Assembly (NCBI GenBank): GCA_016744595.1
Contig: JADGEB010000008.1
Span: 1-64,000, forward strand
Origin: Desulfuromusa sp.
GTDB taxonomy: Bacteria > Desulfobacterota > Desulfuromonadia > Desulfuromonadales > Geopsychrobacteraceae
Reading direction: 5' to 3'
Length of the DNA stretch: 64,000 bases
Each line of letters begins with the position of its first letter. The first letter of the stretch is position 1. The translations under genes were made by a program, and so were the position numbers. This document shows, piece by piece, positions 28,806 to 31,070 of this stretch. Below the pieces are notes generated by a model. The model ran no database searches. It saw only the letters and a program-made list of their open reading frames with translations, and had not been told where the DNA came from.

Positions 28806-29771
28806 ATGGTAGTGACAGAGAAAAAACGAGTACTGGTTGCGGATGCAGAGATTCTCAATTTGGCAACCCTGATTGGAACTTTGAAAGATGACTATCATGT
28901 CGTTGTTGCCAAGAACGGTGCTGAAGTCTTCAAGCAGCTGAAAAAAAACAGTATTGACATAATTCTTCTCGATACCAGACTTCCAGACATTGCTGGATTT
29001 GAAATCTGTCAGAGGCTCAAATCAGACAAACAAACCCAAGAAATACCAGTTATTTTTATTACCTCCCAAAATTCTGTCACCAACGAAGAAAAGGGATTTG
29101 AGGTGGGTGCCGTTGACTACATCGCCAAACCTTTCAATGCACCGACAGTGACCGTTCGAATTAAAAATCAATTAAAGCTCAGCAGTGCAATTATCGAGTT
29201 AAAAAGGCTCAACCAGCTCGCCCTTGATGCTAATCCAAATACAGGTCTACCAGGAAACAACAGTATTCTTAAAGAAATTCAGCGTGTCGTCACTAAAAAG
29301 GAAGATGTTTGTATCATTTATGCCGATCTGGACTACTTCAAAATTTACAACGATACCTACGGTTTTGCCAAAGGTGACGATGTCATTGTCTTTACTGCAA
29401 CCATGATCAAGGTTGCCCTGCAGATTAATGACTGTGCAGGTTCGTTTCTGGGACATATCGGTGGGGATGATTTTGTCATTGTTGTTCCAGCAGAAAAACA
29501 TGTCGCCGTCGCTGAAGAAATTATCCGTAAAATTGATCAAGGAATTTTAGAATTTTACAGTGATGAAGATGCTGAAAGAGGCTATGTCGTTGCTATAAAT
29601 CGCGAAGGAAAAGAAAAGCATCACCCACTGGTCAGTCTCAGTATGGGTGGAGTTGACCTATCTCAACGTGAAGTAACAACGGCACTTGAAGTCATTGACA
29701 TCTGCACAGAAATGAAAAATACGGCAAAAGAACAACAGGGCAGTAATGTTCTTATCTGCCAGCGACATTAA
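28806..29771 (+). CDS. Response regulator with GGDEF-type domain
   Basis: A 321-residue PleD-like protein. The receiver domain (1-120) has D13/E15, phospho-acceptor D56 in ILLDTRLP and K108 in YIAKPF. The second domain (about 140-315) begins NTGLPGNNSI and carries GGDDF at 219-223 in GHIGGDDFV instead of GGDEF; no RxxD inhibitory site is seen in the five residues before. The Glu-to-Asp change leaves cyclase activity uncertain, although this variant recurs in a TGLPGN subfamily (from memory). No partner kinase is adjacent. Confidence 0.9.
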   Translation: MVVTEKKRVLVADAEILNLATLIGTLKDDYHVVVAKNGAEVFKQLKKNSIDIILLDTRLPDIAGFEICQRLKSDKQTQEIPVIFITSQNSVTNEEKGFEVGAVDYIAKPFNAPTVTVRIKNQLKLSSAIIELKRLNQLALDANPNTGLPGNNSILKEIQRVVTKKEDVCIIYADLDYFKIYNDTYGFAKGDDVIVFTATMIKVALQINDCAGSFLGHIGGDDFVIVVPAEKHVAVAEEIIRKIDQGILEFYSDEDAERGYVVAINREGKEKHHPLVSLSMGGVDLSQREVTTALEVIDICTEMKNTAKEQQGSNVLICQRH

Positions 29772-29773
29772 AA

Positions 29774-30286
29774 TCAAATAGTCTCAAACCGATTCATCTC
29801 AATATTCTTCCGTGATTTTTCTGGATCGAAAATTTGTCCATTCATGGCAATCCACACCCCTGTAGGCAACAATTGAACGGCCGTAATAGCGCTGGCAATA
29901 TTATATATTGCATCGGTAAAACGAAATCTGGCCGGTTGCATAGAACCAGTCAACACAACCGTCTTCCCACTAATCCCACGCAAATAATTAGCTGTTGCAA
30001 CCATCGTATCGGTTCCATGAGTCATAACAATTTTATCAATCGAACTCTCAGTGACCGCCGCTTTTATCAACTCTCGATCTGCATCATTCAAATCAAGGCT
30101 GTCTTTACGTAATAATGGTGTAATTTGATAATCAACTGTCAAATTCGCATCACGGAGAACATCATCAATCTGTGGCTCACCAATTTCATAACTGCTCTTA
30201 GCATCAAAGTAAACCTTGTCAATCGTTCCACCAGTCGTCATGATTTCAATCTGCACAGTAATCTCCCGTAAAGAATCTGCCATCAT
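29774..30286 (-). CDS. Single-domain asparaginase-like protein
   Basis: A short (160-170 residues) protein equal to only the N-terminal domain of type I/II L-asparaginases. It keeps the two catalytic Thr motifs: TTGGTID near the N-terminus and MTHGTDTM in the middle, plus LTGSMQPARF. It lacks the C-terminal domain of normal 330-residue asparaginases. Two starts are possible: ATG 30286, overlapping the upstream stop, or GTG 30256 with GGGAG six bases upstream, which gives MQIEIMTTGGTID. Last gene of the DUF302/UPF0251 operon. Substrate unknown. Confidence 0.85.
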   Translation of the reverse strand: MMADSLREITVQIEIMTTGGTIDKVYFDAKSSYEIGEPQIDDVLRDANLTVDYQITPLLRKDSLDLNDADRELIKAAVTESSIDKIVMTHGTDTMVATANYLRGISGKTVVLTGSMQPARFRFTDAIYNIASAITAVQLLPTGVWIAMNGQIFDPEKSRKNIEMNRFETI

Positions 30287-30573
30287 TCGTGTGGCTTGAT
30301 CACCAAAGCATGCCCCAACAACAGAGCTTCAACTATTTTTTTTCTCCCACTGGTGACCAACCGTTGAATTGTGCCACGGGAGATCCCCATTTGCACCCCC
30401 GCTTCGGCCTGAGTCATAGCATCCCGATCACAAAGTGATATCGCTTCAAGTTCATCAGCCTCAAGTTCAATCCTCTGCAGTTTCGACAACGGCGTCCCCG
30501 CTGGCTTGAACATATGATCGGTGGGTCGACGTGTCGGACAACACCTTCTTGGTTTTCTGGGTCTAGGAGACAT
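30283..30573 (-). CDS. UPF0251 (DUF134) DNA-binding protein
   Basis: A 96-residue protein of the UPF0251 family. The N-terminus MSPRPRKPRRCCPTR and central ELEAISLCDRDAMTQAEAG lead into a sigma-region-4-like helix-turn-helix (ISRGTIQRLVTSGRKKIVEAL). It probably regulates its own operon. The stop overlaps the asparaginase-like ATG (ATGA). Members often sit next to metal-cofactor or redox genes. The likely operator is the palindrome at 31030-31045. Confidence 0.88.
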   Translation of the reverse strand: MSPRPRKPRRCCPTRRPTDHMFKPAGTPLSKLQRIELEADELEAISLCDRDAMTQAEAGVQMGISRGTIQRLVTSGRKKIVEALLLGHALVIKPHE

Positions 30574-30586
30574 AGATATTTTCCAG

Positions 30587-30994
30587 TTAAAGGGCTTCTT
30601 CTATCGCAGAAACCAAACTGTCACAGACAGCTTCATGCATAGCAGGGAATGAGACATCATCGACAAGCTCTGCGACCAAATCTTGATAGATACGTAACAT
30701 TCGAACCTGAGTTTGATTGTTTTTAGTGAAGACAACGATAAATTTAGGGAGAAGAACCGCCCGCTCAAGGTTTTCCATCAAAGACTGTGCTGATTTTTTT
30801 GGCGCACAGACCTGCACCATGCGAAGATCAAAACCTTCTGCCAATTCAACCCCATGATGACCAAAGTGATGCACCATTTCCATCTTATCGTCATTGTGAA
30901 TCATAAAACCCTGCATCGCCATGGTTTTACCTAGATCCTGAATAAAATCAACGATACTTTTATCTGTTTCGGCATGAAAAACATCTGCAGACAT
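30587..30994 (-). CDS. DUF302 family protein
   Basis: A 135-residue cytoplasmic protein with the DUF302 pattern: alternating G-rich and hydrophobic segments (KTMAMQGFMIHNDDK, LRMVQVCAPKKSAQSL, ERAVLLPKFIVVF). The family has no firm function; some members sit with redox or metal genes. It is the first gene of a three-gene operon with UPF0251 and the mini-asparaginase, 13 bases ahead of the former, behind a clear promoter and operator-like palindrome. Confidence 0.8.
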   Translation of the reverse strand: MSADVFHAETDKSIVDFIQDLGKTMAMQGFMIHNDDKMEMVHHFGHHGVELAEGFDLRMVQVCAPKKSAQSLMENLERAVLLPKFIVVFTKNNQTQVRMLRIYQDLVAELVDDVSFPAMHEAVCDSLVSAIEEAL

Positions 30995-31029
30995 AGCTAT
31001 TCCCTCTAAAAAATTGGCTCACGTTTAAT

Positions 31030-31045
31030 TTGTGCATATGCACAA
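31030..31045. promoter_or_regulatory. 16-base perfect palindromic operator
   Basis: TTGTGCATATGCACAA is exactly self-complementary. It lies 36-51 bases upstream of the DUF302 ATG and overlaps the -10 box of the minus-strand promoter, the standard geometry for repression. The encoded UPF0251 protein is the natural candidate to bind it (inference). Confidence 0.75.
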
Positions 31046-31070
31046 TAAAGTTATTGAGCAAAAAAGTCAA
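31042..31070 (-). promoter_or_regulatory. Sigma-70 promoter of DUF302 operon
   Basis: On the minus strand TTGACT (31070-31065), a 17-base spacer and TATTGT (31047-31042). The -10 shares four bases with the palindrome. Confidence 0.7.

Follow-up and report, generated by a model that had tools for sequence, protein, structure and literature searches.

Short-chain L-asparaginases (scASNases), represented by RrA of Rhodospirillum rubrum, form a described family for which a structure has been solved and activity measured (PMC10949315). Di-Nase and Mrp/NBP35 domains bind and transfer Fe-S clusters, and Di-Nase/Mrp proteins carry such clusters (PMC6345978). DUF302 proteins have been tied to sulfur oxidation by gene context (PMC5037610). 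For the DUF134 (UPF0251) family, a search of the open literature found no function, no site or regulon, no palindrome and no account of DUF134 together with NifX.

The window, which is the whole stretch of DNA analysed, comprises 64,000 nucleotides from Desulfuromusa sp. Its minus strand carries an operon with the gene order DUF302, DUF134/UPF0251 and short asparaginase, spanning 29774-30994. The sequence-only reading had described three genes behind one promoter and a palindrome overlapping the -10, and all of these features are present:

31065..31070, minus strand: -35 hexamer TTGACT of the sigma-70-type operon promoter
31042..31047, minus strand: -10 hexamer TATTGT of the operon promoter, spacer 17 nt
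31030..31045, minus strand: perfect 16-base palindrome TTGTGCATATGCACAA with core TGTGCATATGCACA, the proposed DUF134 operator
30587..30994, minus strand: DUF302 protein (Pfam PF03625), 135 aa, operon gene 1, with an orthologue that is also first in relatives' operons
30283..30573, minus strand: DUF134/UPF0251 protein (PF02001), 96 aa, with a sigma-region-4-like HTH, the proposed repressor
29774..30286, minus strand: short-chain L-asparaginase of the RrA type (PF00710, E 7e-23), N-terminal domain only

The first four bases of the palindrome are also part of the -10 hexamer, and the exact 16-mer occurs once in the window. Consensus promoter matches are equally common in shuffled sequence, with 4.6 expected in the region and 4 observed. 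By itself the promoter match therefore does not exceed chance, and the case rests on comparison with related loci.

The DUF134 protein is a clear family member, clearing the PF02001 gathering score with 71.8 bits against 27 (E 7e-20). The Sigma70_r4 profile also matches within it, as expected of a DNA-binding HTH protein, and a genome-wide search found a single DUF134 copy. The DUF302 assignment is borderline, at 23.5 bits against a gathering cut-off of 23, and covers only profile positions 18-61 of 63. A second, weak DUF302-like match (E 0.012) lies just beyond the window in a 150-aa open frame (G000 contig 94, 70928-71062). A response regulator at 28806-29771, whose GGDEF domain has a GGDDF signature, converges on the asparaginase gene and ends 3 bases from it. 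In this genus the operon is flanked by branched-chain and general amino-acid ABC transporter operons.

The probable start codon of the asparaginase is the GTG at 30256, which follows GGGAG and gives a protein of 160 aa; most relatives' asparaginases are 160-161 aa long. With this start, the 4-base overlap with the DUF134 gene may not be real. The best PDB match was 8uoo, a 185-residue asparaginase chain, with E 3e-40 compared with 4e-11 for the best full-length chain. Six residues, Thr21, Lys24, Tyr26, Thr92, Asp93 and Lys160 (170-aa numbering), correspond to RrA Thr16, Lys19, Tyr21, Thr87, Asp88 and Lys158, and all six are identical; they include both catalytic threonines, Thr21 and Thr92. 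The protein has the N-terminal domain only, a length of 160-170 aa compared with ~170 aa for the family, and RrA rather than class 1 as its nearest relative. Judged by these features, ASPARAGINASE is a member of the short-chain RrA family. The sequence-only reading was correct that only the N-terminal domain is present and that both threonines are kept, but not in calling the family obscure, since scASNases are a known family (PMC10949315). The short asparaginase was accordingly rejected as a novelty.

The order DUF302-DUF134-asparaginase is conserved in close relatives. The asparaginase joins the DUF134 operon in close relatives only and is absent from most DUF134 operons, so it was rejected as the core of the system; by its distribution it is a late, lineage-specific and local addition. 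A separate full-length asparaginase is encoded elsewhere in the genome. Across the phylum the usual DUF134 partner is NifX rather than an asparaginase.

Conservation of the palindrome was examined in about 150 related loci in all. The first set comprised 68 DUF134 genes from family-level and phylum-level loci, and the second comprised 80 named DUF134 loci, part of which come from the same genomes as the first. In the 68-gene set, sites of the general form TGxyCATATGy'x'CA, allowing one mismatch, numbered 35 in 129 kb upstream and 1 in 131 kb downstream; the lone downstream site precedes a NifX gene. The sequence-only reading had staked its self-encoded regulator on the palindrome recurring upstream of orthologous operons. 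In the 80 named loci, allowing two mismatches, the palindrome was found 51 times upstream (2.5 kb) and 0 times downstream (binomial p 1e-16, with kinship ignored), which supports UPF0251 as that regulator, with binding inferred. With TGTGCATATGCACA and at most one mismatch the counts for the 80 genes were 34 upstream and 0 downstream. Five such sites occur in this genome compared with 0 for the reversed control.

Position is conserved along with sequence. When the operon promoters of this genome and 7 close relatives are compared, hardly any block is conserved apart from the -35 and the palindrome. A TTGACA-like -35 begins 33-37 bp ahead of the dyad in ~53/64 related sites; this constant distance indicates that the operator lies over the -10 and start region alike across Desulfobacterota. 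DUF134 has a conserved operator in its own promoter, as an autoregulatory repressor does. Two MAGs labelled Nitrospirae and Nitrospira (L295, L310) likewise have perfect sites ahead of their DUF134 genes. At four loci (L183, L185, L298 and L314) two sites 48-50 bp apart flank the promoter, an arrangement like the NifX/Mrp pair described below.

Among near-complete genomes of the family, a site was found in 17/20 that bear DUF134 and in 0/6 that lack it, although the latter are uninformative as natural knockouts for site loss because most of them also lack the NifX/Mrp operon. It is as if DUF134, its sites and the NifX/Mrp operon had been lost together as a module. Allowing one mismatch, a site is present in 76/247 genomes, many of them without DUF134, and lone one-mismatch sites elsewhere are therefore taken as background. 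No site was detected at four DUF134 loci of the genus (L046, L047, L060 and L061; the L046 sequence stops 350 bp upstream), and the TGTGCATATGCACA-type motif found none in many Desulfocapsaceae loci or in most loci with other recognition helices. The exact 14-mer was rejected as a phylum-wide motif because it fails beyond the SRGT helix type.

The proposal of a small self-contained system was not supported. Sites for the single DUF134 of this genome also lie at other loci, above all at a NifX/Mrp Fe-S-carrier operon, and these trans sites led us to reject a purely local circuit. Trans sites were found at the following loci:

L006, L196-L203, L206, L208, L211, L212, L215, L349: NifX-Mrp operons
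L217: second DUF302 gene with an SBF/ACR3-like permease
L207, L210: NifU-like genes
L357: CoA-disulfide reductase-rhodanese
L008, L220: hybrid histidine kinase

In this genome a DUF5320-NifX-NifX-Mrp/MinD operon has a promoter with one site on either side, the two being 56 bp apart, and the pair is kept in nine genomes at 56-57 bp. Between the two palindromes lie a conserved TTGACA and a TAATCT-type -10; apart from the palindromes and the -35/-10, hardly any columns are invariant across the nine genomes. Features of sigma-54-dependent control were not found at this operon. Both NifX-like proteins carry PF02579 and the ATPase has CbiA/ParA and 4Fe-4S domains, that is, the operon encodes Di-Nase proteins with an Mrp/NBP35-type ATPase. 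Some trans targets elsewhere are NifX-Mrp-Mrp operons. The site GAGTGCATATGCACAA lies ~50 bp ahead of a PAS/GAF hybrid histidine kinase (G000 contig 51, 7442-7457; L008:4943), and the site block is retained in a second species (L220) whose kinase is 75% identical.

Two further groups of sites were noted. The near-perfect palindrome GTGTGCATATGCACAT (G000 contig 17, 115182-115197; L007:5183) lies within the spacer between TTGACT and CATAAT, ahead of small ORFs of apparent prophage origin, and may be a DUF134 operator that has been captured. TGTGCAAATGCACA sites lie upstream of a pyridine nucleotide-disulfide reductase in L205, L219 and L223, with a divergent SLAC1/TehA-like channel at the first two.

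The commonest DUF134 partners are NifX-like proteins; DUF302, SBF/ACR3-like permease, NifU and CoA-disulfide reductase-rhodanese also occur. A typical operon has DUF134 either after NifX alone or after NifX, DUF302 and permease, and NifU is sometimes included. Locus L175 (G140) contains a 327-aa open frame in which a DUF134 domain is joined to a NifX-like (Di-Nase) region, which supports a functional link between the two. Taken together, the Di-Nase/Mrp proteins, the gene context of DUF302, NifU and CoADR-rhodanese point to Fe-S and sulfur homeostasis, and we consider Fe-S/sulfur handling a reasonably probable theme of the regulon. Because no function has been established for DUF302, DUF5320 or the permease, it is NifX, Mrp, NifU and CoADR-rhodanese that carry this theme.

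The operator also changes with the protein. DUF134 proteins were divided by recognition helix into an SRGT[VI]QR type and others (SR[PQ]TF[GS]R and similar). With the SRGT[VI]QR helix, the variable positions are TG/CA in 47/50 sites, whereas with other helices they are TG/CA in 0/7, with AG/CT, AA/TT, GG/CC or GT/AC instead. A seeming exception, L186, proved to be a broken SRGT-type sequence. The changed palindromes are of the TGAGCATATGCTCA type, for example TTGACATATTATGAGCATATGCTTATAAT, and lie in or beside the promoter at 8/24 loci compared with 0.02 expected. Since the operator shifts with the recognition helix, DUF134 itself appears to be the binder. The correspondence is strong but not final, because helix type largely tracks taxonomy; the counts throughout ignore phylogeny. 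We regard it as highly likely, from these comparisons, that DUF134 binds the palindrome.

DUF134 proteins occur in bacteria and archaea, judged by matches from a control search. AlphaFold2 run on an alignment of 48 sequences gave a confident HTH (pLDDT 86), compared with pLDDT 56 for a single-sequence run. The best Foldseek matches of the model in the PDB were sigma region 4 and DeoR-type domains over ~46 residues, with modest E values (best 5e-3). Cys11 and Cys48 are invariant in the 48 aligned SRGT-type proteins, and the LCD motif that contains Cys48 is present in 105/106 SRGT-type proteins compared with 2/26 of the remaining DUF134 proteins. These cysteines are candidate sensors, although we hold cysteine sensing to be somewhat less than an even chance.

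A different regulator, CRP/FNR-like or Rex-like, might own the palindrome, with DUF134 as a frequent passenger. The TGTG...CACA half sites resemble CRP/FNR-type motifs, and some DUF134 loci have no site. However, the spacing of the palindrome is unlike that of CRP/FNR and Rex sites, sites are confined upstream of DUF134 genes and are not found in near-complete family genomes that lack DUF134, and their sequence varies with the DUF134 recognition helix. We felt that a passenger role was very unlikely.

If DUF134 does bind the palindrome, it could still activate, or act in both directions, by recruiting polymerase through its sigma-region-4-like domain. The match to sigma region 4 fits activation, as does the position of one of the two NifX/Mrp sites ~15 bp upstream of the -35. 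Most cis promoters, however, have a single site over the -10/+1 behind a good -35, and the sites of other helix types mostly fill the spacer or overlap the -10; both arrangements are typical of repression and make activation rather unlikely. The third alternative is an asparagine or amino-acid utilisation unit, with the scASNase as its core and DUF134 as a dedicated asparagine-responsive regulator. Its appeal comes from the amino-acid transporter operons on either side in this genus. Against it, asparaginase accompanies DUF134 in close relatives only, most DUF134 operons that share the operator contain NifX but lack an asparaginase, the genome already has the full-length enzyme, and the trans targets are NifX/Mrp genes. 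We consider this reading very unlikely.

The best overall reading, with a probability of roughly 0.75, is that DUF134 is an autoregulated repressor of a regulon for Fe-S and sulfur handling. Operators over the -10/+1, or paired around the promoter, point to repression with autoregulation, and DUF134 is likely to act as a repressor. Very probably it shuts down both its own operon and a distant Fe-S-carrier operon by covering promoter palindromes; the comparative evidence is the conservation of the sites, the promoter geometry, the targets in trans and the way the operator varies with helix type. A DUF134 dimer would bind TGTGCATATGCACA directly and cover the -10 and start region, which would exclude RNA polymerase and hold DUF302-DUF134-scASNase expression low. 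In trans, it would repress the DUF5320-NifX-NifX-Mrp/MinD operon through the two flanking sites, and probably the PAS/GAF hybrid histidine kinase as well. The regulon would handle Fe-S or metal-sulfur clusters and reactive sulfur. Derepression may come from Cys11/Cys48 sensing Fe-S or metal supply, sulfane sulfur or redox state. More tentatively, DUF134 proteins may be widespread one-domain, sigma-region-4-like repressors whose N-terminal and HTH-adjacent cysteines sense Fe-S cluster, metal or sulfane-sulfur status, and which govern an alternative anaerobic Fe-S carrier regulon (NifX-like, Mrp/NBP35, NifU, CoADR-rhodanese and DUF302).

The operator, the fixed promoter geometry and the target genes turn DUF134 from a name into a testable regulator. 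One switch would link the NifX-like and Mrp/NBP35 Fe-S carriers of anaerobes, which are poorly understood, with DUF302. The correspondence between helix and operator offers a specificity rule usable for finding DUF134 regulons in other phyla.

Compared with known systems, the protein shares the conserved HTH of the DUF134/UPF0251 family (PF02001) and scores over its cut-off; for this family, with no function found in open papers, the present proposal supplies an operator together with a promoter geometry and a regulon. The asparaginase has the same length as RrA, the N-terminal domain only and identity at the six residues checked, but the candidate enzyme is encoded here in a regulator's operon. 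In protein content the trans target operon matches the ORP/MrpORP systems of Desulfovibrio (PMC6345978, PMC3897727): it encodes Di-Nase (NifX-like) proteins and an Mrp/NBP35-type P-loop ATPase with ferredoxin motifs. It differs in that the genes are separate, a DUF5320 protein is included, and the promoters are of sigma-70 type and carry DUF134 sites instead of being under sigma-54 control. Like small autoregulated HTH repressors, the system has a self-encoded HTH protein, a palindrome over the -10/+1 and trans targets; DUF134 differs from them in consisting of a single sigma-region-4-like domain that has N-terminal cysteines and lacks a separate effector domain.
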